Shown: piece by piece, positions 9,412-26,278 of the stretch
Layout: each line of letters begins with the position of its first letter
Position numbering within the stretch: position 1 is the first letter of the stretch
The notes under the pieces: generated by a model
The model's input: only the letters and a program-made list of their open reading frames with translations
Told to the model about the DNA's origin: nothing
Databases searched by the model: none
IMG/VR virus record: IMGVR_UViG_3300009603_000047
Span: 1-27,544 of that record
DNA from: a virus
Length of the DNA stretch: 27,544 bases
Direction: 5' to 3' (one strand)
Program-made: the position numbers and the translations under genes

Positions 9412-10272
9412 TTATGCAGTTGCTGGTGTACCTGCATCGAGTGTCAACGCAACACCTTTGCTGTCATCGAGCTCGAATACACCGTAGTCAGCCGTGATCA
9501 CTACCTCGGTAGCTCTCATGGATATGTCCCTCTCCTGCTCTTTGTTCATGTCAATAGACTTGAGCACAGCTAGAGCAGACCTGTCGGCGCACACGCCAAC
9601 AGCATCGTCACTACCGTCAATGGTTATGTTCCCATCTTCAAATATAGGAACTCCGTTTATAGGTCGTAGCCCACTGAAGAAGTTACCTAACAAATCAGCA
9701 GACCAACCTACTGGCACTGGGTATGTAGTAGAAGCTGTGACCGCTGTATTAGCAATGTCCCATACAGCAAATGGATGCTGAACGATATATACGTTAGGAC
9801 CAAACTTATTACCCTTGGCATATGCCACGGTTGCGGATACATTAGCCAGGCTCATGCTACGCCCGGCTGCACCTATGTCAGTGCTAAAGCCGGAGTACAG
9901 AGCTGTTACGTCTGTGTCCTTCTTCCTAGCCATACCATCACCAAGCTGACGTCCGATCATGCTAAACACATTCTCTGTACTCTGGCGCACCAGTTTGTCA
10001 GTCAGGATGATTTTTGCCCCTACCTCATTAGCTGTGAGGTCAACAGTGGTCATGCCAATGTCTTCCTCGTCTATGATGTCTTGCCCGTCTACTAAGTCGG
10101 ACATGGACATCTGGCCTACCTTGGGAACAGTTACCTGTTTGGCTCCTTTCGGTAGAGTGAATTGCTCTATCAAGTTCATAGCTGGTGCGTTATGCTCCTC
10201 AGTATAACGAGCAGCGGCTATGATGATATTCTGAGCCTTTTCGAGATTGCCTGTCGTTGCTGTCTGTGCCAT
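9412..10272 (-). CDS. major capsid protein, HK97-like fold (286 aa)
   Basis: Position and size fit a major capsid protein: it follows a scaffold-like gene and has the strongest ribosome site in the operon (AAGGAGG, ten bases before ATG). The sequence has an N-terminal helix (LEKAQNIIIAAARYTEEHNA), an extended strand region (AKQVTVPKVGQMSMSDLVDG), a long spine-helix-like segment (KLVRQSTENVFSMIGRQLGD) followed by ARKKDTDVTALYSG, and late beta strands including P-I-N-G-V-P-I-F-E-D and a final EVVITADYGVFELDD. This order of elements is typical of the HK97 fold in marine podovirus-like phages. No maturation-protease gene is seen nearby. The assignment is by pattern and context. Confidence 0.78.
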   Translation of the reverse strand: MAQTATTGNLEKAQNIIIAAARYTEEHNAPAMNLIEQFTLPKGAKQVTVPKVGQMSMSDLVDGQDIIDEEDIGMTTVDLTANEVGAKIILTDKLVRQSTENVFSMIGRQLGDGMARKKDTDVTALYSGFSTDIGAAGRSMSLANVSATVAYAKGNKFGPNVYIVQHPFAVWDIANTAVTASTTYPVPVGWSADLLGNFFSGLRPINGVPIFEDGNITIDGSDDAVGVCADRSALAVLKSIDMNKEQERDISMRATEVVITADYGVFELDDSKGVALTLDAGTPATA

Positions 10273-10291: not shown

Positions 10292-11041
10292 TTAACTTCC
10301 CATGCCCGCAGCTCGACGTGCTGCTGCTATATGGGCTTCGGTTTTGTATCCCCCAATATATTCCCTCAACAGTCGCTCCTGGTTGCTTGTTGCTTCCGCC
10401 GCGCCCTGACTATTGTCGAAAGTCTGCGGTGCAACCTGCCCCTGTTTTAGCCGAGATATCTCGGCTGCTTGTTGACGGAGCTGCGCGATCCGCTTTGCCT
10501 CGCGCTCCATGTCTTGTGGGTTCGTAAATCCAGTTAATGACTTATAGTCCTCTAGCATTTGTTTATTGGCTAGTCCGTACTTATCAAGCATATGAAGGGT
10601 GGCTGCCTGCCTGCCTTCTATGTTGCGTATTAAGTCAAGGTCTTTGCTCTGTTGATCACGTAGTTGCTTCTGGCCTGCTACATGTTGCCTGGCTATTTGT
10701 CTGGCACTCTGTGGATCTGTGCCCTGTTCCTGTGCCCTGCGCTCAATAGCCTGGGCCTGGCGATATACTTGCTGTTCCCATTCTTTCTGGGCGTTGACCT
10801 GCCGCATAGTATGCAGCTCCTCAAGTTCAGCGCGCATATCCGGTGCGGGCGACGTGGGCGGCGCAGATGGATCAGGCTGTTGCTGTATCGGAGGCTGTAT
10901 AGCCTCTACGGGTACAGGGGGCGCACCCTCTGTACCAACCACCGGCTCATCGCTTGGCGGGCTATCATCTCCCGGCTCAACGGGTGGAGCCTCCGGTGTT
11001 TCCGGTTCTATAGGTTCTTCTGCGTCTACTGACATTACCAT
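10292..11041 (-). CDS. capsid scaffolding protein (about 249 aa)
   Basis: The start chosen is the ATG at 11039-11041, seven bases after AGAGGAG; an upstream TTG at 11045-11047 is less likely. Residues 1-70 are acidic and Pro-rich, a disordered tail (EEPIEPETPEAPPVEPGDD). Residues about 70-200 are strongly helical and Gln/Arg/Glu-rich with coiled-coil character (MRAELEELHTMRQVNAQKEW; REAKRIAQLRQQAAEISRLK). The C-terminus is basic (YKTEAHIAAARRAAGMGS), as in scaffolds that bind the capsid protein through a positively charged end. It is encoded directly upstream of the major capsid gene, the usual place. It probably guides procapsid assembly and then leaves. Confidence 0.72.
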   Translation of the reverse strand: MVMSVDAEEPIEPETPEAPPVEPGDDSPPSDEPVVGTEGAPPVPVEAIQPPIQQQPDPSAPPTSPAPDMRAELEELHTMRQVNAQKEWEQQVYRQAQAIERRAQEQGTDPQSARQIARQHVAGQKQLRDQQSKDLDLIRNIEGRQAATLHMLDKYGLANKQMLEDYKSLTGFTNPQDMEREAKRIAQLRQQAAEISRLKQGQVAPQTFDNSQGAAEATSNQERLLREYIGGYKTEAHIAAARRAAGMGS

Positions 11042-11084
11042 TTCCAAACTCCTCTCTTATTTCTACATATTTCCTGAATGTTTG

Positions 11085-14000
11085 TCAAGGCTGATGATAT
11101 TTATATAGCGTCTCTTGTGTGACATCTTCAGATAGTATGTCTCCGAAAAATGACAGAATGGTGGACGTATCCATCGGGTTTCTTTCTATCTGTTGTAAAA
11201 CCCCTTGCGTTGTTTGGCCTAACCTAGTTAAAGGGTCAGAGTCCCAACCTGTAGTTACCTGGAGCATAGCATCTACCTTCGGGTTTGCAGCCTGGAACTC
11301 TATCTTCGCCTCGCGTGCGTTCTTAAGCAAGACTCTGAATAAGTCATTCTTGTGTTCTGTTTTCTTTCTGTCTTTCGAGCTTTGATGTTTCCATTGGTTA
11401 TATAGCTCCATTGTTTCTTGGGCGCGTCTGGGATATTGCCTGTTTAGCCTCTCGACAAGATAATTCTTTTCTACTTCATAGTAACCAGACTGTGCAATAC
11501 GCTCAGATATTTCCAGCATAGCACTGGCAACGGGAGGGGCTTCTCGTTTGGCTGACTGTTGTACCCTTAATAGATAGGACGCAATGTCAGAATCCGCTAG
11601 AGTCTTAAACCTCTTCTTCATATCGACCGCCCACTCCTCGAGCTTGCGGTCTCGCTTATCCCAGTCCGGTTCACCCGTGGCTGGGATAATGATGTTATCT
11701 TCTCCATATAGCTTGTCATAGTAAGACGCCTGGGCAAAGTCATATACATCAACATCAGCGTTAGATAATATACCCAAAGAAGATTCCCGTCCAAAAGTAA
11801 ACAGCTCGTCTACACCCCTAAAAGCTCCCTGTGGCCCGGTAAGGGCACGTCTTTTATCTGAAGCCTCTTTACGTATCTCTCGTACATCTGCGTAATATGT
11901 TGTTATGTTTTGCATTCCATTAGCTATAAATGCGTCTTCAGCTACCTGTAAAAAATTCTGCTCCTCTACTAAAAGGCGGTCTCGTTCAGCTTTGTATCTA
12001 GTGTACTCGCTAGCACTATTCCGAACCCTCTCGTCAATCTTAGCCTTTGCCTTCTCCCAATCCTCTGGAGATAGAATATCTGCAAAGCGACCTTCTTCTG
12101 TCATTCTTTTAATGTTCTTGCGATAATCGCCGGCAACCTCAGAGAAGCTTGGCGTCTGGTTGCCCGACAACAATCTCCTGATGCTGAGACTAACATCAAA
12201 GCCACGCCCATCATTCCATCCACCCTTACCAATGTCCCTTAGATACTCTGCCAGTTCGCCTTCAGTCATACTGAAAGCTTCCTGTAAATCTACATTGGTC
12301 GGGCCTAGTTCCAGAACCGATGCATACACCTCATCCAATGTTTCATTAAGGGATTCATAGCTACTCTTTATGCCAAACAATTGGCCGAGTCCCTGGCCTG
12401 CTGCTGTCGCAATGTCTGCTCCACCACCCAATACATCGCCTTGTCTTATCTGTTGCACCCCTCCATATGTCCTCTGTATTAAGGATTCCTTACCCGGATC
12501 TGCACGGAACAGTTCGTCCCAGGCAAAGGGAATCAGGTGTTCCGCCAAAGTCCCTATTGTTTGTCCGCTCATTAGGCTATCAAAATTACTTACATGTACT
12601 ATCTCGCCATCGACTAACTGCTTGCCGACAATAGGACGTGTAGTCTGGCCAATAGCATCCGTGCCCGTAGCAAGATCCATAGCTAGACTTGCAGCAGGTC
12701 CGCTAACTAATCCCCGGAAAGCCTTGAAGCTCTCGTCTATTCCGCCCCCCTCTCCTATGCCATTTGCCACAGCAAAGAATGGCGTTGATGCTATTCGGAA
12801 CATTGTATCCCAGGGGCCGAATAAACTAATATCTAAATCCCCTACATGGATACGCATAAAGTTTGGGTTGAAGTGCCACTTACCGGTTGCCTCGTCTCGT
12901 AGCCAGGGACTGATATCTGTTTCTTCTCCCATCGCTTCATTGATAGCAAAGGTAAGGAATGTTGCCGTGCCCATCATTTTACTCATGTATTGTTTGGCAA
13001 TGCGTTCCTGTAATGTAGCCCTATCTCCTTTAGCGGCTCCCTTAATAGCATGGCCTGCGAAACTCATTCTGGCGGCAAAGAAGCGTGGTGCAAATAAGAG
13101 GAACTGGCCTATACTGCCACCATACCCACGCTTACCCACACCGGTCATTACGTTTACTATAGAAGATATCTGTGCTGCATCCCCACTATCTATGAGTTGC
13201 TTGGTAGTCATCCCTGTATCCACCATTCGTAATTGCATTTCAGCATCAAAGAGCTGATATCGTAGTACGTTGCCGTAGTGCGTAAATGCTCTGTCAAAGT
13301 TTTTCAAACCAGGAAATTGAGCCATGCGCCTATTAAGGAACATATCCGGGGCATTGCCTAGTATGGCCAACCCAGAACTGGCAGCTTCTAGTGGTGTTGC
13401 CCTACCTGTTTGTTTAGCCAACACATCTTGTAGCTGGAAGAACTCTCCAACAACCTCGGGTCCTGCATGAACAAAAGCTTCCCAGGAATCACGAATGGCA
13501 GTGATGCCATCACCCCGTCGGTCAGCTACAAGTAAATGCTGACCCCTGCCTGTACCTTTGCGCAACGGGTCTTCTACGACACGACGTAGTGCATCGTTCA
13601 TAACCGTAGACCACCCTTGAATACCCATAGCACTCATGTCCCCAGTTGCACCATAGGTTCTCATCAGATTGTTAAGAGCCATATACGCTTTGGCAAAACC
13701 TGATGGATCTGTAGTACGCTTTATAAACTCTTGGCTCTCTATGATGGCGTCTCTAAATAATACCGGGAAATAATGTCCCTCAAGTCCAATGCCGGATAAC
13801 TGGCCCATACGGCCCGTGACCTCTTTTTTCATCTGTTCCATATCACGGGTAGCCTTCTTGAATAATTTTGTAAGTCTCTCTTTCTCGGCCTTGTTCCAGC
13901 CCTTGTTGGTCATCAGGCTATCTATTTCTTTTCTCCACTTAACAAGGCTTGCCTCGAGGCGATCCGTTTCCGCCCGTGCTATCACAGATATATCAATGTC

Positions 14001-17000
14001 TCCCAAATCGCTAGTGACATTAGGGGTGATTTTACCGGCTGCTTCCATCTCGGCAATAATAACCTCAGCTCTCGATAGGAGACGTGCCTGCCTGCCACGG
14101 CCCGTCCATTCTCTTCTGGCAACATTCTTTAATAGCCGTTTGATCTCGACCAAGTTAATGTTGTATTTTTTATAAACCTTTTCGCCAACAAGCTGTGCGA
14201 CTGTGCCATATCTACCCTTCATGTTTTCATTGGCAATCCGATTAACATACTGGCCCAGCTTTCTGTTCTGCACTATGTTGCCTGCGTATTCCACAAACTC
14301 ACCGTTAGATACAGCAGGACTGGCATACACATGACGAAAGAACATGCCTAGAGCCTGCGAGGGCATCTCTCGTTCTTTCACGGATTTCACTCCCCATCTC
14401 TTTGGTATATCACCCTGGTCTGATAATTCTAATTCACTCAACCCCCGTGACAACACACCATCATCTTGTACCGATTCTCCCATGACATTACTGGGCTGAT
14501 ATCCGGCACCTTCATTGTATAAAACGTGGCGAGCTTTGCCAGCTCCGCCAACTCCCTCTTGGATTAATTGCGCCTCATACCTTTTGGGTATCGCGGCAAG
14601 TTCAGACATAATGTCATACGCTGACACCTTGTCTCCTTCTTTGAATCCAAACAACGAACCCCCACGTTTATTAACTCTCCCTATTAGATCCTTGTCTAGC
14701 GTAACAACGGCAGACTTTAATGCAGCTACATATAAAGGTAGTCGCTCCACTACATCACGATATCCCGGCTGTAGAGTCAGGCTTATGTCTTCCCCCCTCA
14801 TATTTTTTTTCACATCGCCAGGAGCAATATTCTTATACCTCTGGCCTGCGGGAGTACTGAGGTCAACTATAGAGTTACCCAATACAGTTTGATCTATATT
14901 GTTGTCTATAAAATATTCATCTGTAAAAGCAAAGTTAATCTGATTGCCCTGTTTCTCTGATAACAATAAGTTCTCTAAGAGTTCCCCCTGGGCGGTAACA
15001 ATATTATTGTCCGCATCAAAAGATTGTGCTATGCGCCTTTCAATCGGACCACCCATGTTGGACTTTAATAGTTTAGGAAACAATGCCTGTATTGTGGCAA
15101 TCCCAATCCCCGTCTTTTCCCTAACAACGGTCGCATGTCCTTCAACCCGGTTAGCCGTACCGTCAGACCAACTTTTAATCTTGTCAGCAGCTTCCCTTCC
15201 AATCCCCCGTTCATATAATTCTTCTGCGGTCTCAGGTTTTGTCCTTCGTTGAAAAAGATCCGGTATTATTGTGGATTTGCGTCGCAACATGTTGTTGGCC
15301 GTAGCCATTAGATTATTTGTTGCATTAACCGCTGTTTTATCTGCTATGGCCGACTTTACATTTTGATATGTCTGTAGCATTTTGCTACCAAACCCGGTCC
15401 TTGGTGACACCATCTCAATATCCGGTACACCAAAGGTGTTGTCATTGGCAGACGCTTGCTGTGCGGCAAAATCGTTTGCTGCGTTTGGCCTGATGTCCGG
15501 GGTATCAACTAGGCGTTTGGCTTGATGAATATCCACGATAGGCTGTATAAAGTCCCTGGTCACCGCCCCATGTATGCCATTACCAAGTACTGTCTTGGCA
15601 AGTTGATTGCCTGTGTAATCCTTCCCATATTTACCTGGGGGCGGTATAACGAAATCATCAGGAAGGCCCATGTACCTTTTCCACATATCAGGGGTTGCCC
15701 TTATCACTTTCGTCGCTTCATCATCAATCCCTGTTGGCCCTGGCAGAATAATACGTGGCACTTGCCCCTTGGACGCTACAAGTGTTCCCCCTGCCTGTGG
15801 CCCAGCGTACTCCCTAGTATGAAGGTTTCTCCCGGAGTTTCTCGCGTTGGCCTCTTCAAAGACACCTGATCCCCCTGTGGTTAAAATAGGCCGGTTAGAA
15901 TCTAGCTTTCCTTCTGCAATCATAGTACGTATTCGGTCTACCTCCCAATGGGTCTCACGGGTGATAGGCCTAAACGCCTGGGCGAGTGACATTGCATTAC
16001 CAGCATCCTCTTCTGCTTTAATTAAATCCTCCAGGTTGTCATACCAGTCTGTCGGACCTGTTTTCTCAGGAAGAGCTGGAAGCTCACCAACATCATTGCG
16101 AACAGCCCTAAGAAGCATTCTAGGTCTGTGCTGCGACCCACCGTAGTCAGCAGCATTTACTAGTTGTACATCCCATTTATACCCAATAGAATCTGCATCT
16201 ATTGCATCTGTGATTTGCTTAAACAGCAACGTGTTTTGATACTGCGGAACATTTTCTATGGTAATAGTCTTGGGGCTGGTCATGCGTATGTTTCTTGCCA
16301 CGGATGTTGCGATGGCATAATCATTCTCGTCAACTATCCGGTTGGGATTTATTAATGAAAATTTCTTACAAACTGGAGAGGCGTGGTAATGCTCGGCATT
16401 AGAAGCGATCAGTGACTGCAAGGAAGCATCATCAGCAATGCTCCTCGCGGTGAAGTTCGTTCCATGTGCGATATTGAACGCCTGGATAATCTCTGGATCA
16501 TATTCATCAACGTGTACATTAACGTAAGAACCTGGTTTTAGGCCTCCAGCAAGTGTGCCAGTACCAGCCATAGACTCCGCTAGGCGTACTACCGTGGTAA
16601 CTGGTGCGGTAACTGTGCCTTCCACTTCTTGTCGAGGCAAAACCCAAGTCGGATTGTCGAGCTGTTCTTCAAACATTTCATCGTAGAAGACATAATCAAA
16701 AGGTACGCCTTCAATATGTCCGCTGTTCACGGCATCATCAACTGCTTGCTTTGCAGTTGCGTTAACCTGATCCATGGGCAGGCCCTCTTCCTGTGCCTTC
16801 CTGCGGAACTTATTAACCATAGTTTCAAGTCCCCTAAATGTTAGCCTGGTACCGGCAATGCCACCTCGGACGCCAGTAAAGGCTGCTTTAAAAGGTGCTG
16901 TTATTATGCGCCCTGCAAGATCATCAATACGTTTAGGAATTAATAATGCTTGTCTGGTTGCTTCTGTGGTAGCCCTTACCGTATTACGTGCAGCTTGTTG

Positions 17001-17681
17001 AGCCAGGGTATCAGCTCCCATCTGAGCTGCTTTCCTAGCACCTAGCCTTGCAACAGTCTTTGCGGCAAATGCCGTGCCCCCGGTTAATACCGTCTCTCCA
17101 ATACCGGCTGCCACTTCCGTTGGCAGTTCAACAAGCATCCTGTTAGAAAACTCTACCGGCCCAACCTTATGGCGTTCTGTTAGCCAGGGCATTGCTACAT
17201 CCTGGACTTGCGCCATGATATCGTATTCTTCTGTCATCGTGGGATTACGGCCTTCACGATCACGAAAGGCCTGTTTGTCTGCCTCGACTTGTGCCCCAAG
17301 CTCTACATTACGAGAAGGATCTAGCCTCTCCCCCCAGCTCTCTGGCATTCCACCAGGCTTTAATCCAAACCCAGACGAAACATCCGCCCCGATATCTAAA
17401 ATATCGCTTCCATACTCTCTTGCTCCATGCCATAACATACCGCCTATTCCGCCCTGCTCGTAGGCCTCTTTCAATTCTCCGATTCTCTGAATCTCCTCAA
17501 CCGCAGCACGGCGAGGATATTCCATAGCAGCCTGTGCCGGCTTGCTCTGGAGAATAGGCGCAAGATATTTGCCCGCCAAATTCATTCCCGTCTGGGGAAT
17601 AGGCCGGGCTTGTCGTTCTTCCCTCTGCCGCCGTTGTTCTGCCATCTGGCGTAGTTTTTCTCTTTGTTCTTCGCTAGGCAT
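11085..17681 (-). CDS. giant virion / polyvalent-type protein with embedded C5-cytosine DNA methyltransferase (2198 aa)
   Basis: The largest gene of the window is a single uninterrupted frame whose ATG overlaps the preceding stop as TAATG. Residues 1-25 are a charged helix; about 185-215 is Gly/Ala-rich and hydrophobic, possibly membrane-active. Residues about 366-722 carry a cytosine-5 methyltransferase domain, described in its own entry. From about 750 the protein is mostly helical, with coiled-coil-like segments around 1180-1310. A hydrophobic stretch near 1525-1545 (IGQFLLFAPRFFAARMSFAG), with the region before it, resembles the associated domains of large phage polyvalent proteins. The C-terminal 500 residues are charged and helical. 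The gene lies between portal-side genes and the scaffold, where podovirus-like phages encode internal or ejected proteins. A packaged, DNA-ejected role is inferred; the methyltransferase call is strong. Confidence 0.75.
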   Translation of the reverse strand: MPSEEQREKLRQMAEQRRQREERQARPIPQTGMNLAGKYLAPILQSKPAQAAMEYPRRAAVEEIQRIGELKEAYEQGGIGGMLWHGAREYGSDILDIGADVSSGFGLKPGGMPESWGERLDPSRNVELGAQVEADKQAFRDREGRNPTMTEEYDIMAQVQDVAMPWLTERHKVGPVEFSNRMLVELPTEVAAGIGETVLTGGTAFAAKTVARLGARKAAQMGADTLAQQAARNTVRATTEATRQALLIPKRIDDLAGRIITAPFKAAFTGVRGGIAGTRLTFRGLETMVNKFRRKAQEEGLPMDQVNATAKQAVDDAVNSGHIEGVPFDYVFYDEMFEEQLDNPTWVLPRQEVEGTVTAPVTTVVRLAESMAGTGTLAGGLKPGSYVNVHVDEYDPEIIQAFNIAHGTNFTARSIADDASLQSLIASNAEHYHASPVCKKFSLINPNRIVDENDYAIATSVARNIRMTSPKTITIENVPQYQNTLLFKQITDAIDADSIGYKWDVQLVNAADYGGSQHRPRMLLRAVRNDVGELPALPEKTGPTDWYDNLEDLIKAEEDAGNAMSLAQAFRPITRETHWEVDRIRTMIAEGKLDSNRPILTTGGSGVFEEANARNSGRNLHTREYAGPQAGGTLVASKGQVPRIILPGPTGIDDEATKVIRATPDMWKRYMGLPDDFVIPPPGKYGKDYTGNQLAKTVLGNGIHGAVTRDFIQPIVDIHQAKRLVDTPDIRPNAANDFAAQQASANDNTFGVPDIEMVSPRTGFGSKMLQTYQNVKSAIADKTAVNATNNLMATANNMLRRKSTIIPDLFQRRTKPETAEELYERGIGREAADKIKSWSDGTANRVEGHATVVREKTGIGIATIQALFPKLLKSNMGGPIERRIAQSFDADNNIVTAQGELLENLLLSEKQGNQINFAFTDEYFIDNNIDQTVLGNSIVDLSTPAGQRYKNIAPGDVKKNMRGEDISLTLQPGYRDVVERLPLYVAALKSAVVTLDKDLIGRVNKRGGSLFGFKEGDKVSAYDIMSELAAIPKRYEAQLIQEGVGGAGKARHVLYNEGAGYQPSNVMGESVQDDGVLSRGLSELELSDQGDIPKRWGVKSVKEREMPSQALGMFFRHVYASPAVSNGEFVEYAGNIVQNRKLGQYVNRIANENMKGRYGTVAQLVGEKVYKKYNINLVEIKRLLKNVARREWTGRGRQARLLSRAEVIIAEMEAAGKITPNVTSDLGDIDISVIARAETDRLEASLVKWRKEIDSLMTNKGWNKAEKERLTKLFKKATRDMEQMKKEVTGRMGQLSGIGLEGHYFPVLFRDAIIESQEFIKRTTDPSGFAKAYMALNNLMRTYGATGDMSAMGIQGWSTVMNDALRRVVEDPLRKGTGRGQHLLVADRRGDGITAIRDSWEAFVHAGPEVVGEFFQLQDVLAKQTGRATPLEAASSGLAILGNAPDMFLNRRMAQFPGLKNFDRAFTHYGNVLRYQLFDAEMQLRMVDTGMTTKQLIDSGDAAQISSIVNVMTGVGKRGYGGSIGQFLLFAPRFFAARMSFAGHAIKGAAKGDRATLQERIAKQYMSKMMGTATFLTFAINEAMGEETDISPWLRDEATGKWHFNPNFMRIHVGDLDISLFGPWDTMFRIASTPFFAVANGIGEGGGIDESFKAFRGLVSGPAASLAMDLATGTDAIGQTTRPIVGKQLVDGEIVHVSNFDSLMSGQTIGTLAEHLIPFAWDELFRADPGKESLIQRTYGGVQQIRQGDVLGGGADIATAAGQGLGQLFGIKSSYESLNETLDEVYASVLELGPTNVDLQEAFSMTEGELAEYLRDIGKGGWNDGRGFDVSLSIRRLLSGNQTPSFSEVAGDYRKNIKRMTEEGRFADILSPEDWEKAKAKIDERVRNSASEYTRYKAERDRLLVEEQNFLQVAEDAFIANGMQNITTYYADVREIRKEASDKRRALTGPQGAFRGVDELFTFGRESSLGILSNADVDVYDFAQASYYDKLYGEDNIIIPATGEPDWDKRDRKLEEWAVDMKKRFKTLADSDIASYLLRVQQSAKREAPPVASAMLEISERIAQSGYYEVEKNYLVERLNRQYPRRAQETMELYNQWKHQSSKDRKKTEHKNDLFRVLLKNAREAKIEFQAANPKVDAMLQVTTGWDSDPLTRLGQTTQGVLQQIERNPMDTSTILSFFGDILSEDVTQETLYKYHQP
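15516..16586 (-). other. embedded C5-cytosine methyltransferase domain (residues ~366-722 of the giant protein)
   Basis: The canonical motifs occur in order. Motif I is ESMAGTGTLAGGLKPG at about 369-384, and the acidic motif II is HVDEYDP at 390-396. Motif IV is HASPVCKKFS, with the nucleophile Cys438 and Val437 replacing the usual second Pro. Motif VI is TIENV with Glu476. Motif VIII is NAADYGGSQHRPR with Gln517, Arg519 and Arg521. A variable region at about 530-655 probably recognises the target sequence. The IX/X region reads MGLPDDF (671-677) and VLGNGIHGAV (698-707). All main catalytic residues are present, so transfer of methyl from S-adenosylmethionine to cytosine C5 is plausible. The 'H-A-S-P-x-C' form is that of a divergent subfamily also found in phages. 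Confidence 0.85.
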
Positions 17682-18046
17682 TAATAAAAGATGAACCTCG
17701 TTCTTGGATTAGTAAACTGCTGTGTGACTCCCCTCTCGAATTGCGGTAGCTGACCATATCTCTTAGTCCACGGATCTGTTTCCAGATAGTCCATGAATGT
17801 AGCAGGGGGTTGACCCTGGCGGAATGATCTGCCAATTTCACCAAGATAATCACCATAAACATCCTGATATGCCCTTTGCATATAGCGACTGCGACGTGGG
17901 CTTTGGCTTCCAAAGGCTTCTCCGGCAGGCGAACTAAAGTATGCCGCCTGTGGAAGCTGGGCTAAAACCATTTGCCCAACCGCCGGCGATAATGATCCCC
18001 AGCCACCACCCGCTAGGTAGTCTGTAAATGCATCACCATTAGCCAT
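17681..18046 (-). CDS. small virion-module protein with F-x-x-Y motifs (121 aa)
   Basis: A protein of unknown family. It contains A-F-T-D-Y-L at residues 6-11 and T-F-M-D-Y-L at 83-88, a motif that recurs in the neighbouring 239-aa protein, together with QSPRRSRYMQRAYQDVYGDY in the middle. It is rich in Gly, Tyr, Phe and Gln and has no membrane segment. AGGAGTTAATC precedes the ATG, and its stop overlaps the giant gene's start, suggesting coupled synthesis of the two. It may bind the giant protein or the capsid through the repeated motif; this is inference. Confidence 0.55.
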   Translation of the reverse strand: MANGDAFTDYLAGGGWGSLSPAVGQMVLAQLPQAAYFSSPAGEAFGSQSPRRSRYMQRAYQDVYGDYLGEIGRSFRQGQPPATFMDYLETDPWTKRYGQLPQFERGVTQQFTNPRTRFIFY

Positions 18047-18055
18047 GATTAACTC

Positions 18056-18775
18056 CTATCCATAAAGTTGAGACAGTGCAGTGCTTGCATCAGTTCCGCC
18101 ACCTGTCTGTGTCAGGAAGTAATTCAAGAAATTACCCATTGGGTTCTGGCCCACATATGCATCATATAATTCATTCAAGACACCCCCCATAGCCTGTCCA
18201 ACAACACCCCCATAAAGGCCACCGCCCGGTCGTTGTAATGCCAAGAGATTCGCTAGGCCAAGCCTGTTTTCCCTTGCGCCCTGCCCGCTTGCATATAGTT
18301 CCCTAAACAGGGTAGCTTCTTCCGGGCTAATGGTTCTTGGTACCGCGGGCCCTGGAGATACACCAGCACCAGGCACGGGCTCACCAATGCCTGTTAGATA
18401 CTCTAGAAAGCCACCAGGCCCTGTGCCCTCCGGCATTTGACTGATGCGACCAATCTCCCCCGCTAAAGAGCGTAAGTCTGTTGGAGTCGCGCCAGTATAT
18501 CCACCCATAAAATCAGCAAAGCTACCACCAAACCCGGTCTGTGTACCGAATCTTGGTGTGCCTCCACCAAAGCCACCCAGATAATATTGCTGTAGTAGAG
18601 GTGACTGCAAGCCATACAGTGCGTTACGCATCACAGACCCTGGCGCAGTCCTGCGTGTAGCAAATTGTCTAAACCGTTCTGCCGGAGTAAACGCTGTTTC
18701 CCCTAGCCAGTCTGTATCTATCCCCCCTATACCTGCAAATAAATCTTCCATCGATGCATCGTTGCCATTGGGCAT
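18056..18775 (-). CDS. Gly-rich virion-module protein with repeated F-x-x-Y/F motifs (239 aa)
   Basis: A Gly/Pro-rich, probably flexible protein. Related motifs appear as S-F-A-D-F-M-G-G-Y (about 85-93), G-F-L-E-Y-L-T-G (122-129) and N-F-L-N-Y-F-L-T (215-222), each after a Gly-rich linker. A helical part (EEATLFRELYASGQGARENR) separates the last two. The start has a strong TTAGGAGG site. It is placed between the 667-aa protein and the 121-aa protein that shares its motif, so both may be built from one repeated module. The N-terminal D-L-F-A-G-I-G-G resembles methyltransferase motif I by chance only. Function unknown. Confidence 0.55.
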   Translation of the reverse strand: MPNGNDASMEDLFAGIGGIDTDWLGETAFTPAERFRQFATRRTAPGSVMRNALYGLQSPLLQQYYLGGFGGGTPRFGTQTGFGGSFADFMGGYTGATPTDLRSLAGEIGRISQMPEGTGPGGFLEYLTGIGEPVPGAGVSPGPAVPRTISPEEATLFRELYASGQGARENRLGLANLLALQRPGGGLYGGVVGQAMGGVLNELYDAYVGQNPMGNFLNYFLTQTGGGTDASTALSQLYG

Positions 18776-18785
18776 GTTGAACCTC

Positions 18786-20789
18786 CTAATATGGTCTTTC
18801 CTTCATAAAGGTAACTAAAAATTCCTCTCGTGTTTTACCTGCTGCTTCCCAGTTTTTAAGGTTGTCTGCCATCTGCTCCCGCATTCTTTGCTTTAACCAG
18901 GGCTCTGCATCAGGCGGTAAGTTATAGTCTGCCACCAGTCTCGCTGTTCTTCTAGCCGAACCAGAGCTATCGGGATCCATAAACAGCATTCTTTGATACT
19001 GAGTATTCGCATCCATTTCTTCACCCAAGATATCCTCATACGTTACGCCCATAAACTGGGACATGTTGTCTCGTAAGTTTTCTGCCGCATCAAAGAACAT
19101 CCCTCGTCTATTCCTTGGATTATCCATAAACTGATTAGCCCAGTTTGTAAAGTGGTCGTGTTCTTGTGTCAGGTCTTCATCTATATATTGTGGTAGTTTA
19201 ACTCCTTCTACTATCTGGTAATTAACACCTTTTGCTGGGTTGTCTCCTGGCCGACCCTCTGTATCCCAGGGTTCGGTTAAGTAATACAGCATTTCCGCTT
19301 CTGCATATAATTCCGGAAGCTTCTGTCGATAATCATATCGGCCTGATCCTTCTCTCTGATTAAACGCATTCAAGAACCTAGTGTAATAATCAGGGTATCC
19401 TGGACCGTAGGCCTCTTCTTTTGGCTTTGCCCAAATTTTGTCCCACATTGGGTCTAATCCTTCTTCCATTAACGCCTCTTCTTCTGTGGGCGTGAATCTT
19501 CCTTTAGGCATAGTCCCGCTTGCTTGCATAAGATCACGGTCTACTGCCCTTAATCGGTCATATGGAGTGCTATCTAGTGGGTGACCCAGCATTTGTTCTT
19601 GCGGACTGAGTTCGTCTGGTTCCAACCCTTCTTCCATTAACGCCTCTGCATCCCAATCGCCAGCCGAACCCGGCATAAAGTATGGTTTGTATTTATCCTG
19701 ATCCGCGTCACCTAAATAAATATTGGACGGTATGTCTTGTTTCCATGACTCTACTGGCAAGGAAGTTGCCAGGCGGGGTGTGGGCTGCATAGTTGCAGTA
19801 ACATCTTTGGATTCCTGATCCATAGAAAACTGTACAGCATCCACGGCATTTTGCCACGTCTGCATACTATTCCATTTATTGGGGTCAGCTGCACCACCGC
19901 TTATTTTGTTGCGATAATCCTCGAGCCACTCGTTCACCATGCCCATGTCTAGCTCTCCGGTCTGATAGTTACGCTCGTCTCCTATATATGCCTTCAGCGC
20001 GGCTGGGCCTTCATCTTTCAGAATATCATCTAAGACCCGGAAGTATTCTCGAGTCATTGCCTTGTCTTCTAGTTCCATAAACTTATTATTGGTTTGCTCG
20101 CTTACTCCCTGGCCTAACGTATGCTCCCAGGCTGCTTTGTTCCCCAGTTGGTTTAACTGCCAATTATCCCCGGCAGTGGTAATGCTATCTGTTATGGCGT
20201 CACCGATACCTTCTCCGATTGCCATTGTCCCCTCGCCTTGTGCCACCACACCCTCACCCAGTGGAGAGAACACGTTTTCCCCAAGCCAGTCACCAACGCC
20301 ACTGAATATGTTTTTAATATCTGCTAGGAGGCCCCGGTCTTCAGCCTCGTCTTCAATCCTGTCAACAGCTCCGGTAAATGCCGGATGGTTAGAAATAGCA
20401 TTTGCTTCATCAAAGAGGCCTTCGTCGTTGGTATTGAAGCCCACCTCGACAGCAGGAAATTCCTCAAGGAGACTGGCAATGTCTGGGACATCAAGCCCTG
20501 GACCCCAGGGTGTTAACATCCCTGTTACTCCAGCAAGAGCTGCCGGGTCGGCAGATCCTGCCATTTCAATCTGATATGCGGCTTTCTCGACGGCAAACTC
20601 ATCATCTTCATAAGCGGACGCCATATCATAATCTTCCATATGGCCCAGCATAGTATTGCCGAAATCTTCCATTGATTCCTCAAATGTCTTATCACCGTAG
20701 TACATATCCCAGAAAACATTCGCTGGGCCTCCCGTCCATATACTCGCAGCCAACTCAGGAATTCTATTTAAATGACTACGCTGCTCCAT
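18786..20789 (-). CDS. large acidic virion-module protein (667 aa)
   Basis: An acidic protein with many Asp, Glu, Trp and Met residues. Residues about 156-205 (ADIKNIFSGVGDWLGENVFS onward through Gly-rich GEGVVAQGEGTMAIGEGIGD) could form an amphipathic or membrane-interacting helix pair. E-A-L-M-E-E-G-L-E/D-P occurs at 382-391 and 438-447, encoded by a 21-base identical DNA repeat. The C-terminal third is helical (LKQRMREQMADNLKNWEAAG). AGGAGGG precedes the ATG, which directly follows the portal stop. Position after the portal suggests an internal or portal-associated virion protein; no family is recognised. Confidence 0.55.
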   Translation of the reverse strand: MEQRSHLNRIPELAASIWTGGPANVFWDMYYGDKTFEESMEDFGNTMLGHMEDYDMASAYEDDEFAVEKAAYQIEMAGSADPAALAGVTGMLTPWGPGLDVPDIASLLEEFPAVEVGFNTNDEGLFDEANAISNHPAFTGAVDRIEDEAEDRGLLADIKNIFSGVGDWLGENVFSPLGEGVVAQGEGTMAIGEGIGDAITDSITTAGDNWQLNQLGNKAAWEHTLGQGVSEQTNNKFMELEDKAMTREYFRVLDDILKDEGPAALKAYIGDERNYQTGELDMGMVNEWLEDYRNKISGGAADPNKWNSMQTWQNAVDAVQFSMDQESKDVTATMQPTPRLATSLPVESWKQDIPSNIYLGDADQDKYKPYFMPGSAGDWDAEALMEEGLEPDELSPQEQMLGHPLDSTPYDRLRAVDRDLMQASGTMPKGRFTPTEEEALMEEGLDPMWDKIWAKPKEEAYGPGYPDYYTRFLNAFNQREGSGRYDYRQKLPELYAEAEMLYYLTEPWDTEGRPGDNPAKGVNYQIVEGVKLPQYIDEDLTQEHDHFTNWANQFMDNPRNRRGMFFDAAENLRDNMSQFMGVTYEDILGEEMDANTQYQRMLFMDPDSSGSARRTARLVADYNLPPDAEPWLKQRMREQMADNLKNWEAAGKTREEFLVTFMKERPY
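19459..19647. repeat. 21-bp direct repeat inside the 667-aa gene
   Basis: The same 21 bases (CCTTCTTCCATTAACGCCTC plus T) occur at 19459-19479 and at 19627-19647, 168 bases apart, so the spacing is a multiple of three and the repeat is in frame. It encodes the duplicated E-A-L-M-E-E-G-L peptide. Identity at DNA level, with a few matched bases beyond, suggests a fairly recent local duplication of a short linear motif. Confidence 0.8.
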
Positions 20790-22637
20790 TTATGGCCCTC
20801 CTTGTGCGCCAGGTCTCGGAGTGCCCGGCGGTACTAGTGGTCCTGCTTGTGGCGTAGGAGCTGGAGGGGGTACGCCCATCATGGCATTAGGCATTACTTC
20901 TGGTCGGGTAGTCGGTGGTCCCCCGGGAGGTCCGGTCGGGGAAGGGGGTCCGCCCGGTCCGGGGGGTCCCCCCGGTCCTGGGGGTCCACCGGCCTGCATT
21001 GCCATTTGTTGCTGCATCATCTGTGCAGCCTGTCGCTTCTGCATGATCACGTTCATCAATTCTCCTGTATAAAAACTGACGAGATCCTCACGCCCTTGAC
21101 GCTCGGATGCTCGGAGTAGCGTCCACAATGCTGCTTCCGGCAACATTCTTTCCGCCATTTGTTCCTTAATAGAGTCATCCATCTGGTCGGCGTCTTGTAT
21201 AGCCAAGATTCTATCTCTGATTGCACGATCTGACAAGAGAGGCGTTGGGCCTTCCCTGGCAATCTGTGCCATTGAGTACCTGGTCATATCGTCCTGTGGC
21301 AATTGTCCGACCAGATTCACGACCGGAACGCCGGTAGCTTTCAGCATATCAGGTTCAATTGTCTCTGTGAAATACATTCTATGCCGATCCATTCCTGATA
21401 ACTCTAGCGACTGGAACGATCCGGTTACATATTGATCTGATACTAAATTGAATATCATTTCGTAGGCTTTCTCTACGCCTCTCAGGTATTTACTTACTAC
21501 TGTTTCCACTCCCTGTCGGAGTGTATTAATAGCAAACCCTGAGAGCTGGAAGGGGACATCCCCATATACTGAGTAGGGGATAGCACCTCTTTGCATTTCC
21601 CCGGATACGAGCTGCATAAACGCACCTGTTTCCTTGGCCACTTCCAGAAGTCCCAGGGGTTCCACGTTCTCGTTTTGTGAAAGCGCAATCTCAGAACCCT
21701 CCAGGTATGGATCTTCATCTAAAGTTTTTGTTCCATCTCTGGATCTTACAATAAGCCCCTGCCTCCTGGATCTTGCTGTCATCTCCAGCATTGTACTCAT
21801 CATCATGTTATGTTTTTCGTACAAATCCCTAGTGGACGTGTACACTGCTTCGCCTACATCAGCGATAGTATTGTCCATATTCGTATGGGTCATAGCGATT
21901 ATGTATGGATTAGATCCTATCGGTCCCAAAAATACAGGAACCTGGTTGGCTCCGTGCTTGGTTTGTTTCTTCACAACCCTGATTAAAGGCTGATTCTCAG
22001 AGCCTGCGTGGATAATAATCGTGTTCATTTCCTTATCATAGAAGTCATAGACATCTATGCCCTCGGCTGTATACTGGCTATCCCAATCGACGCGTACATT
22101 ATATTGCGCCAGTATCTGATCTCTGGTCTTAGGAACCTTGTAACACGCCCACTCTAATCCGTCTGATCCGACGCCCCAGTAAGTATGCATCGGGTCCCAG
22201 GGTGTGATATCCACGTATGTTGTGCCATCGTCCCGTTTTGCCAGCAAGGCTCTGCCGGAGTACCATCCACGGAGTGAAGAATACCATGCAAGTTGATCTC
22301 GTACCGTGGGCAGCATCATACGGCAGAGCCTCTCATCCGCTGCTTTAATAATACCAATAAGGAATCTTTCCTTTAAATCATTGCGGTCGCGTAGTTCCGG
22401 GTCGGCCTGGTCGTGCGGAATACGCACAGTCATCTCAGCTCCTGCTATCCACCCGATTACTTTCTGTGCGTAATTGTGTGGTTCATTAGAAGTATATGAC
22501 TGATAGCCTTCCCCTGCGTCATAGGGGTCCAGCCTGTACAGAGAATGGTCATCCTGCATTCTCTGTCTGAGCGGTTCGGTCGCATTATAGTGGGCATCCA
22601 CTAACTTAACGATATCTTCTGGTTTTCTACGTGCCAT
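20790..22637 (-). CDS. portal protein with collagen-like C-terminal tail (615 aa)
   Basis: It directly follows the large terminase, where phage portals are encoded, and its size fits. The N-terminal region has helix and clip-type features (VDAHYNATEPLRQRMQDDHS, then YTSNEPHNYAQKVIGWIAGA), the wing-like segment YVDITPWDPMHTYWGVG, and a core helix region (VYTSTRDLYEKHNMMMSTML; SGFAINTLRQGVETVVSKYL), a layout seen in portals of podovirus-like environmental phages. Residues 549-615 are an unusual Gly/Pro-rich tail with G-G-P-P-G-P repeats, after a Gln/Met-rich helix (RQAAQMMQQQMAMQ). Portals form the dodecameric DNA entry and exit channel. The tail is low-complexity and probably disordered, or collagen-like. 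The Shine-Dalgarno is weak, so translation may be coupled to the terminase gene. Confidence 0.8.
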   Translation of the reverse strand: MARRKPEDIVKLVDAHYNATEPLRQRMQDDHSLYRLDPYDAGEGYQSYTSNEPHNYAQKVIGWIAGAEMTVRIPHDQADPELRDRNDLKERFLIGIIKAADERLCRMMLPTVRDQLAWYSSLRGWYSGRALLAKRDDGTTYVDITPWDPMHTYWGVGSDGLEWACYKVPKTRDQILAQYNVRVDWDSQYTAEGIDVYDFYDKEMNTIIIHAGSENQPLIRVVKKQTKHGANQVPVFLGPIGSNPYIIAMTHTNMDNTIADVGEAVYTSTRDLYEKHNMMMSTMLEMTARSRRQGLIVRSRDGTKTLDEDPYLEGSEIALSQNENVEPLGLLEVAKETGAFMQLVSGEMQRGAIPYSVYGDVPFQLSGFAINTLRQGVETVVSKYLRGVEKAYEMIFNLVSDQYVTGSFQSLELSGMDRHRMYFTETIEPDMLKATGVPVVNLVGQLPQDDMTRYSMAQIAREGPTPLLSDRAIRDRILAIQDADQMDDSIKEQMAERMLPEAALWTLLRASERQGREDLVSFYTGELMNVIMQKRQAAQMMQQQMAMQAGGPPGPGGPPGPGGPPSPTGPPGGPPTTRPEVMPNAMMGVPPPAPTPQAGPLVPPGTPRPGAQGGP

Positions 22638-23996
22638 TTATACCCACCTTTTTACGCGAATACTGTCACGGTTGTGTACATATCCGTAGCCAAACTTATC
22701 AATCAGTCCATAGATAAGGGCTTTGACGCCGTGATTGTTCTTATCTTCAGGTACTTCCCCCACTATATTACCTTCTCTATCTGTTTTCCACCTATATGCT
22801 TTCGTTTGTCCGTCGAAAGGATTAGGCGATGCACCGAATTCTGACAGTAATCCCTGGCACTTTGCGTCTATTACTATCTTTGGTGCGTGTGTAGAGGGGT
22901 CAATTTTAAGCCAGCTCTTCAATCTTTCAGATCCTTCATTGATTTTTATCTTCTGACTAGCCATAAAGAGCCCTGCTTTATCCAGCCACAGCTCTGCGGG
23001 AGCTGCCATTGCCTGGTGCTGGGTACCGGCTATATCAATGACGCCGTACTTTACATCCCGCCACCACGGCCTGGCAGTAACAATATCTATAATATCCTCG
23101 GTTATTAAACCCTGTTCATATATTTCATCGATAACCCGTATCTGTTCCCCAACGAATTGTATCACCTCGACTGCATATGCTCCGGCGTACCCCGGGTCCA
23201 TCCATATATGAACAGGGACATGGGGATCATACTCCACGTTGCCGACATGTGCATCAGGCCGGAACTCAGGGAAGACCAGACCCCTTGGAGGACTGGGCTT
23301 TCCTGCTATACGTTCCATAAAAAAGTCATCGCTGGCTAAATTCTTCAGCCTGATAATCTCTGGATCGTTCTCTCCGCCCGGATATAAATACTTATTAGTC
23401 CAGCTCGGTAGGGAATAGGCCCTGGCCTGCTTATCAGCTCCCGATGCCCACGCTGTAAACATCTGTGGATACCATCCGAGAGATCCCTCAAATGTACCTG
23501 AGAGGAACAGCCATCCCTTTTTAGGGGCACATCTGCCCATAAGCCTGTGGAATGTATCTAAATCCAGTTGAGATGCCTCGCACCCAAGTATTCCGTTGGG
23601 GGCTCTCATTGCCAGTGTCCTGTGGTCTTTAGCGGATTTAGTCTCTATCCTCGTGCCGTCCACCAATTCCAGGAACCCGGGATCTACACGGAGAGAATAT
23701 TTCTTTAACATCTTCAATATCCCAAAATTATCCTTGAGATATTCAAATTCAGCCCTTGTTCTTTCGTAGTCCGCAGCTACCAGCCAATATAACGCAGGAC
23801 CATGTTCTTCATTATGTAAGAAATACTGGTGCAGGAGATACTTGGAAGCAATCATGCTCTTACCAGCCTGCTCTCCCCCGGCCACGAGGTTAAACCGATA
23901 CGGAGAATCTATAATAACCTTCTGCTCCTTGGTAGGAACAAAGCCCACTATATCAAATACCTGGTCTCTAACCGGCTTCCTAACGGCAGTAGTCAT
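22638..23996 (-). CDS. terL: terminase large subunit (452 aa)
   Basis: The packaging motor ATPase and nuclease. Walker A is A-G-G-E-Q-A-G-K-S at 39-47. The Walker B-like acidic strand is G-I-L-G-C-E with Glu140. The coupling motif is L-F-L-S-G-T-F-E-G around 163-171. The C-terminal RNase H-like nuclease has H-I-W-M-D-P-G-Y (Asp267), Y-G-V-I-D-I-A-G (Asp321), and a last acidic/His cluster E-D-K-N-N-H-G-V-K-A (Asp418, His422). The length is normal for the family. The start follows AGAGGTAAAAG, inside the stop region of a 27-aa gene. It works with the small subunit and portal to pump DNA into the procapsid and cut it. No frame break is seen. Confidence 0.92.
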   Translation of the reverse strand: MTTAVRKPVRDQVFDIVGFVPTKEQKVIIDSPYRFNLVAGGEQAGKSMIASKYLLHQYFLHNEEHGPALYWLVAADYERTRAEFEYLKDNFGILKMLKKYSLRVDPGFLELVDGTRIETKSAKDHRTLAMRAPNGILGCEASQLDLDTFHRLMGRCAPKKGWLFLSGTFEGSLGWYPQMFTAWASGADKQARAYSLPSWTNKYLYPGGENDPEIIRLKNLASDDFFMERIAGKPSPPRGLVFPEFRPDAHVGNVEYDPHVPVHIWMDPGYAGAYAVEVIQFVGEQIRVIDEIYEQGLITEDIIDIVTARPWWRDVKYGVIDIAGTQHQAMAAPAELWLDKAGLFMASQKIKINEGSERLKSWLKIDPSTHAPKIVIDAKCQGLLSEFGASPNPFDGQTKAYRWKTDREGNIVGEVPEDKNNHGVKALIYGLIDKFGYGYVHNRDSIRVKRWV

Positions 23997-25395: not shown

Positions 25396-25441
25396 CTAGA
25401 GGTAGGCCAAGCTTACAAATACAAAATTGTGGAGTGTGAAC

Positions 25442-26278
25442 ATGGTAACAAGAGCGGAATTGATAGAATTCGCCGAGGCGGCGATTAACAACCCGGACGG
25501 CCTCGGCCATGGGGCCCCGGCCCATTGGGGCCCGAATTGGAAACGGGCCCACAGTAAATTCACGGAATTCACGGCCACAGGTCAACCACAATGGAATATA
25601 TTCGTCAAAGGCAATTCCAAGTTAAAGTTTTGGCAGTTTTCCACACTGCCAAAAATATCTTGCCCAGGGGCGGGTGACTGTCTAAATTGGTGTTATAGTT
25701 TCAAGGCTTGGCGGTATCCTGATGCATACTTTAGACAATTACAGAATACTATTCTGATTATGAATAAATCCGAACATATCACGAATGCATTCTTAAACTT
25801 ACCAACAAATGAGACCATCCGTTTATATGTTGACGGCGATATAGACAGCCTGGACACTCTCGAATTTTGGTTTGATCTATTGGCCAAACGGCCCGACTTG
25901 CAAGTATATGGATACTCCAAGTCATGGGCCGTGTTCCTAGCATATGACAAAACTGGCCAACCTTGGCCAACAAATTATATGCTTAATTTATCAGGTGGTA
26001 GTAAATACAACGGCCAATTACGGGCCCATATGGAACAATTGCCAATTGTCCGCGGGGAATTCGTCGCAGTTACGGCACCCTTTAAAATGCCTAACAAACT
26101 AGACACGCCGACACTATGGGCACAATGGGCAAAAGTAGTAAAAGAATCAGCGCGTAAACTTGGATATGCAAATTCGTTTGTATGTCCGGGCAAATGTTAC
26201 GCATGCCTACCTAATCAAGAGCATGCTTGCGGATCTTGGAAGTTTAAAAATATTCCTGTAGTTATAGGCATACATTAA
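25442..26278 (+). CDS. phage gene-product-88-like protein (278 aa)
   Basis: The start is the ATG at 25442, eight bases after GGAG; an in-frame TTG at 25427 precedes the ribosome site and is rejected. The motif G-N-S-K-L then ISCPGAGDCLNWCYSFKAWR gives Cys74, Cys80 and Cys84 (C-x5-C-x3-C). The core strands I-R-L-Y-V-D-G-D-I-D-S and V-Y-G-Y-S-K-S-W match the 'GP88' family first named from mycobacteriophage. A C-terminal cluster C-P-G-K-C-Y-A-C with Cys248, Cys252, Cys255 and Cys263 could bind iron-sulphur or zinc. The biochemical activity of the family is, to my knowledge, not established; the shape recalls a barrel enzyme with a metal cluster. It is the first gene after the rightward promoter. 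Its DNA is unusually rich in GGCC and GAATTC, unlike the structural operon. Confidence 0.75.
   Translation: MVTRAELIEFAEAAINNPDGLGHGAPAHWGPNWKRAHSKFTEFTATGQPQWNIFVKGNSKLKFWQFSTLPKISCPGAGDCLNWCYSFKAWRYPDAYFRQLQNTILIMNKSEHITNAFLNLPTNETIRLYVDGDIDSLDTLEFWFDLLAKRPDLQVYGYSKSWAVFLAYDKTGQPWPTNYMLNLSGGSKYNGQLRAHMEQLPIVRGEFVAVTAPFKMPNKLDTPTLWAQWAKVVKESARKLGYANSFVCPGKCYACLPNQEHACGSWKFKNIPVVIGIH

Follow-up and report, generated by a model that had tools for sequence, protein, structure and literature searches.

The 27,544-base virus fragment analysed here (the window, by which we mean the whole stretch) comes from an uncultured deep-sea-type phage and encodes a giant protein that, as comparison with its relatives indicates, is a structural-block protein with a cargo slot, the content of that slot in the lineage of the window being a cytosine-5 (C5) DNA methyltransferase (MTase) domain. 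By analogy with known systems, we see an even chance that this giant is packaged in the virion and injected and that its MTase methylates the incoming DNA against restriction.

The giant gene and its methyltransferase domain

The giant gene belongs to the following block, in which the gene before it ends with a stop that overlaps the ATG of the giant (TTTATTAATGCC).

9412..10272, minus strand: major capsid protein (PF25209, E 2.1e-7, and several head-protein PHROGs)
10292..11047, minus strand: probable scaffold, between the giant and capsid genes, judged from its position and a composition rich in Pro and Gln; relatives show 49-63% identity
11085..17681, minus strand: giant protein gene with the embedded MTase, a single ATG-to-stop frame of 2,198 aa; homologous giants occupy the same place in relatives
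17681..18046, minus strand: 121-aa protein directly preceding the giant gene, which it always adjoins; 50-78% identical
18056..18775, minus strand: 239-aa structural-block protein, syntenic in relatives
18786..20789, minus strand: 667-aa structural-block protein, syntenic in relatives and 23-54% identical over part of its length
20790..22637, minus strand: probable portal gene, by position only (directly after the terminase); 70-85% identical across the clade
22638..23996, minus strand: terminase large subunit (phrog_2, E 9.9e-21)

The probable portal protein has no match in Pfam, PHROG or PDB sequences. A terminase scan yielded a large related phage group, from which 80 loci were kept. In the loci long enough to show it, the giant gene is found in the same place, downstream of a 70-85%-identical probable portal, and in this phage group it always lies between the portal-side genes and the scaffold and capsid genes. 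The giant gene of the window is encoded beside late virion genes, as is the phage type of polyvalent protein described by Iyer et al. (2017). Elsewhere in the window, positions 25427-26278 on the plus strand encode a homologue of phage Gene product 88 (PF17338, E 9e-17).

An earlier note on this DNA had placed a C5 MTase with motifs I, IV (with its Cys), VI and VIII and a PDDF...LGNG end at positions 15516-16586, within one uninterrupted frame of 2198 residues. Those positions correspond to residues 366-722 and agree with the domain, the MTase itself occupying residues 366-717, all of the named motifs are present, and both the profile and the structure comparisons recover a Rossmann MTase.

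15516..16586, minus strand: C5-cytosine DNA methyltransferase domain, residues 366-722 (PF00145 and fold match to M.HhaI/M.HaeIII)
16554..16574, minus strand: motif I, SMAGTGT, residues 370-376, for binding of the cofactor; the two Gly of G.G are invariant across a six-member alignment
16356..16379, minus strand: motif IV, SPVCKKFS, residues 435-442; HASP.CK.FS invariant in the six members
16368-16370, minus strand: predicted catalytic Cys438 of motif IV; Cys kept in every clade member tabulated
16248..16256, minus strand: motif VI, ENV, residues 476-478; invariant in the six members
16119..16133, minus strand: motif VIII, QHRPR, residues 517-521; both Arg invariant in the six members
15576..15587, minus strand: motif X, LGNG, residues 699-702; GNG invariant in the six members

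The Pfam family PF00145 (DNA_methylase) matches residues 368-695 with an E value of 3.9e-22 and a score of 79.5 bits against a cut-off of 22. The PHROG family phrog_116 matches the domain at E 3.3e-18, the NCBIfam dcm model matches it at 1.7e-11, which is under its curated cut-off, and a profile built from six relatives of the MTase finds M.HhaI at 2.8e-21. An AlphaFold model of the domain, made from the six-relative alignment (pLDDT 72.8, pTM 0.73), has a predicted Rossmann MTase fold, and its comparison with the PDB returns M.HhaI and M.HaeIII first (E 2e-12 to 2e-11, TM-score 0.5-0.6). The DNA cytosine C5-carboxymethyltransferase of PDB entry 8yf3 is also among the profile and fold matches.

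The motif order I, IV with the catalytic Cys, VI (ENV), VIII (RxR) and X (GN) is complete in the domain. Cys438 and Glu476 are 38 residues apart, and the pattern P.CK.F..ENV is expected by chance 0.00 times in the window. In the six-member alignment the catalytic residues are invariant among members as low as 30% identity, and they are kept in nearly all of the 38 clade members tabulated. Motif IV of most C5 MTases contains Pro-Cys-Gln (PPCQ), and that of the window MTase reads Val-Cys-Lys (SPVCK). When the P.CK.F..ENV pattern was used as a scan, 79 of 80 frames among the matches listed were SPDCK phage enzymes that are presumed to be active. Since Cys-Lys occurs in these enzymes, VCK is not in itself a sign of decay, and a degenerate active site is not supported on this ground.

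The frame could have been an assembly chimera joining two genes, as the earlier note had recognized, but further contigs and a diverged lineage that all keep the fusion rule this out. The same fusion occurs in L002, which has 99.80% DNA identity to the window (23 mismatches over 11,573 bp), in L003, a second near-identical contig, and in L006/L007, which encode a collinear 2,208-aa homologue of the giant that is 76% identical. Between the window and this 76%-identical lineage, the MTase has a dN/dS of 0.27, the part preceding it 0.35 and the part following it 0.31; judging from these ratios, the giant protein with its fused MTase is kept under purifying selection. It is very probable that an active C5 MTase domain resides in the giant protein, and the proposal that a genuine, conserved and probably active domain of this class is fused into a structural-block giant is borne out.

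A variable slot with exchangeable cargo

Alignment with relatives divides the giant protein into three parts.

16704..17681, minus strand: N-module, residues about 1-326; full-length giants of this phage group that lack the MTase have N-termini 27-40% identical to it
15279..16703, minus strand: variable slot with the MTase, residues about 327-801 (475 aa); near-zero aligned identity across 10 relatives
11088..15278, minus strand: C-module, residues about 802-2198; 28-39% identical in MTase-less giants, with 84-100% column occupancy over most of its length

In closer relatives the N- and C-modules are homologous to those of the window, whereas window residues about 350-800 are not. The distance between the two modules is about 469-484 aa in the window, depending on the pair compared, 217 aa in L093, 101 aa in L099 and 58 aa in L104, and the MTase is flanked by linkers of about 30-80 aa. 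Evolution of the giant protein is rapid, since in L105 the capsid protein is 93% identical to that of the window and the giant modules are only 38-40% identical. The slot comparison is an unusually clean natural experiment, in which related giants with and without the MTase can be set side by side, some of them accompanied by a nearly identical capsid protein.

Pfam gave nothing convincing for the slots of MTase-less relatives. Long slots that have nothing in common with the MTase, and that possibly hold other cargo, are present in the giant ORFs of L049, L026, L039, L070, L084 and L087, and these slots likewise have no convincing Pfam family match. The flanks of the window MTase match no named virion, polyvalent or ejection family in Pfam, PHROG or PDB sequences. 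The C-module has no match in PDB sequences, and the model of its fold is too poor for use (pLDDT 51, pTM 0.33). A scan of genome contigs with the whole giant protein as the query returned no match.

Two more MTase carriers, L253 and L254, belong to the phage group of the window. In its C-module, L253 is closer to L093, which lacks the MTase (57% identity), than to the window (about 34%), yet the L253 MTase is 58% identical to the window MTase. The distribution of carriers on the C-module tree requires two changes, and grouping them all into one clade is rejected (p-AU 5.65e-120). In the tree of the MTases, by contrast, a single clade (100/99) unites the window, L006, L253 and L254. These trees indicate that the MTase and its carrier clearly have separate histories, in which loss and gain look alike. 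Because the carriers form no clade on the C-module tree, yet their MTases do form one, the MTase behaves in these phylogenies as a separable, exchangeable cargo.

Beyond this phage group, the MTase tree gathers 39 embedded sequences, some of them near-copies, into one supported clade (100/99) with the signature HASPVCK; 38 of the 39 are in giant ORFs of 1,572-6,249 aa, and the exception within the clade is L260. Of 39 loci that were read, 36 have open frames of 1,572-6,249 aa, several of which end at the locus edge. The other three are L259, whose frame is interrupted at the MTase, L260, with 919 aa, and the free-standing L286, with 347 aa. Just outside the embedded clade the tree places L286 and a second free-standing enzyme, from a Nostoc plasmid. 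The scan patterns were drawn from embedded members, so free-standing enzymes with another motif IV would be missed by them, but those with HASPVC could be found, as L286 was. On the sequences gathered here, the MTase lineage is almost confined to giant phage proteins of different phage groups.

Among these carriers, G001 has its MTase in a 1,946-aa giant with a crAss-like portal (phrog_6547) nearby, and other relatives of the MTase are in giants of 1,784 aa (L237) and 3,461 aa (L238). G001 and L237 are of the Bacteroidota-phage type. A 3,989-aa MTase protein (L240:512-12478) is encoded on the Prevotellamassilia timonensis chromosome NZ_LT629845.1 and combines the C5 MTase with InPase, LPD13, LPD3, LPD23, ART-PolyVal and ddrB-ParB domains, giving eight Pfam matches besides the MTase. 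Polyvalent domains of other carriers are LPD23 (L238), LPD22 (L255), LPD38 (L256) and a weak ART-PolyVal (L271), and several carriers have virion or lysis genes as neighbours. At the L240 locus, four copies of one 365-aa ORF lie on one side of the giant gene, and a search of 295 genomes of the order of the L240 host for relatives of the MTase found only L240 itself. The giant protein L285:8132-13552 has lost ENV, reads HASPECQAC at motif IV and probably contains a dead MTase. The HASPVCK signature can be used to search for cytosine MTases that are candidates for delivery, and the small size of the domain allows a direct test.

Proposed role of the embedded enzyme

We propose that the giant protein would be built into the virion and would enter the cell with the phage DNA, where the MTase would methylate target cytosines on the incoming genome using host S-adenosylmethionine (SAM), ahead of the host restriction enzymes or as these arrive. 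The logic would be that of the P1 protein DarB, applied to an enzyme that modifies cytosine. The giant may be labelled a head/ejection protein from gene order and by analogy. By the same analogy it is probably part of the virion, its delivery into the cell is slightly favoured, and protection of the incoming DNA from restriction by the MTase comes close to an even chance. We favour delivery because of the position of the gene, the confinement of the MTase lineage to giants and the precedent of the P1 Dar proteins. Several points count against it: the flanks of the MTase match no polyvalent or ejection family and iterative profiles gave no link of the C-module to LPD38, the giant lacks an SNF2 helicase partner of the DarB kind, the same phage has an unrelated free-standing C5 MTase that could already mark progeny DNA, and motif IV is Val-Cys-Lys rather than Pro-Cys-Gln. 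Given the slow turnover of C5 MTases, a small number of injected copies would also have to act fast.

The free-standing enzyme lies outside the window, about 8 kb beyond the terminase (L010:559-1761, minus strand, and L009:1-465, minus strand). It is a canonical enzyme of 400 aa with the PCQ motif, and its block also contains an AAA ATPase and a PD-(D/E)XK nuclease gene. Direct BLAST of the embedded MTase against it gave no match, and the embedded MTase as a domesticated copy of this enzyme is therefore not supported. A relative without the embedded MTase has a free-standing canonical C5 MTase of 478 aa upstream of its terminase (L016:2145-3578 and L015:176-1609, both minus strand).

The presence of the free-standing enzyme also bears on the main rival to delivery, according to which the giant sits in the procapsid or at the portal and its MTase acts late on new phage DNA, no later than the packaging step, and the progeny leave in methylated form. 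The giant gene is one of the late structural genes, the producing cell contains SAM and injection is unnecessary, all of which fits such a role. However, a free-standing MTase would suffice for it without a giant carrier, and since this phage already has one the job could already be done, although the same enzyme is also proof that modification is open to the phage by other routes. Late action moreover leaves unexplained why the MTase subfamily is almost confined to giants of different phage groups, and we consider it unlikely. It is improbable that the fusion is a production device from which a protease releases the MTase to work in solution like any other late enzyme: zincin-like peptidases are predicted to process polyvalent proteins (PMC5512222) and the MTase has linkers on either side, but Pfam recognizes no peptidase domain in the window giant and no cleavage site was identified.

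Any injected MTase would meet host DNA, and many enzymes in polyvalent proteins are host-directed (PMC5512222), so the enzyme might mark host DNA rather than phage DNA and thereby alter host gene expression or distract modification-dependent nucleases; the sequence gives no pointer to host targets, and we regard this as very improbable. Least probable of all is a domain that has lost catalysis and acts only as a spacer, structural or DNA-binding. VCK in place of PCQ would fit this, and the state of L285, a distant member, tells us that decay does occur, but the Cys, ENV, the Arg pair of motif VIII and GNG are retained almost throughout the clade, and the Cys-Lys pair is shared with the large group of presumed-active SPDCK enzymes among the matches listed.

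As a clue to the recognition site, palindrome statistics are suggestive but confounded. CCGG is nearly absent in the MTase-less relatives L016, L100, L105 and L108 and low in L104 (4 observed versus about 43 expected in all), and it is slightly above expectation in the window (111 observed, 95 expected) and in L008, the contig of L006 (64 observed, 50 expected). The CCGG-poor relatives have a G+C content of 0.36-0.40 versus 0.47-0.48 in the window and L008. Because of this difference, because other carriers lack a CCGG excess and because the free-standing MTase is a confounder, we treat CCGG as a hypothesis and not as evidence.

If the MTase is delivered, the particle brings along a modification activity of its own without having to depend on how the last host methylated its DNA, and the modelling of restriction barriers changes. 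In a broader form, several unrelated phage groups would use a dedicated C5 MTase lineage solely as the cargo of giant virion-delivered proteins, moved between carriers via a fixed slot and methylating the entering genome. We advance this tentatively, as somewhat short of an even chance; if true, modification travels with the particle, independent of where the phage last grew.

Comparison with known systems

The Dar proteins of phage P1, including the ~2,000-aa DarB, are co-ejected internal head proteins whose protection of DNA works only in cis (PMC12810830, PMC12707154). Like DarB and the MTase-helicase polyvalent proteins, the window giant is a structural-region protein of ~2,000 aa with an embedded DNA MTase, and by analogy a DarB-like role in shielding incoming DNA is likely. 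DarB-type proteins contain an EcoKI/TaqI-like N6-adenine MTase, LPD36 and an SNF2 helicase (PMC5512222), whereas the window giant contains a C5-cytosine MTase. Its MTase domain is of the PF00145 type rather than the NPP(Y/F) EcoKI/TaqI-like type, and no SNF2-type helicase was matched C-terminal to the MTase, or elsewhere in the 2,198 aa. Because the MTase class and the helicase both differ, the giant is DarB-like in architecture, yet it is not a DarB.

The LPD-type polyvalent proteins of phages and conjugative elements (LPD3, 13, 22, 23, 38, InPase, ART-PolyVal) hold close relatives of the MTase and likewise carry enzymatic cargo in one polypeptide near virion genes. They combine several unrelated activities. 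In the window giant the MTase is the one recognizable enzyme and there is no named LPD domain, and a relative of this MTase is part of the L240 protein with its eight further Pfam matches. LPD, zincin peptidase, ART and InPase domains gave no match in it, although such domains are present in the relatives L238, L240, L255 and L256 and weakly in L271. An iterative profile search did not link the C-module to LPD38, and an hhalign comparison with G001 covered 192 columns at a probability of 14%, which we disregard. Since none of the hallmark domains was found in it, membership of the giant in the polyvalent class is unproven. The analogy with polyvalent proteins nevertheless holds better than the earlier note could know, in that the nearest relatives of the MTase sit in giants, several of which have Large-Polyvalent-protein domains.

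The free-standing C5 MTases of phages and plasmids (phrog_116/363, PaV-LD ORF010 and the Nostoc HASPVCANFS enzyme) have the same catalytic fold and motifs as the window MTase, but are single enzymes of about 350-650 aa and mostly 20-34% identical to it over the aligned part. The Nostoc plasmid enzyme and L286 are the nearest free-standing relatives of the embedded clade on the tree. M.HhaI and M.HaeIII (PF00145) have the fold and the motif order I, IV, VI, VIII, X in common with the window MTase, but they are free-standing restriction-modification enzymes with PCQ in motif IV, whereas the window MTase has VCK and is embedded. The N4-type virion RNA polymerase (PMC5512222) is also a giant virion protein carrying an early-infection enzyme; we liken it to the window giant by architecture only, the one enzyme being an RNA polymerase and the other an MTase.

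Our searches, which covered few subscription journals, found no literature on cytosine MTases in ejection or virion proteins, and the terms "large polyvalent protein" and "DNA methylase" were found together only in the survey of Iyer et al. (2017). In its main text, C5 MTases are not described and "cytosine" occurs only in a reference title, and the MTases of polyvalent proteins are mostly EcoKI/TaqI-like adenine enzymes (PMC5512222). Given that the surveyed enzymes are mostly of the adenine type, the embedded C5 MTase represents a cytosine variant of that theme.
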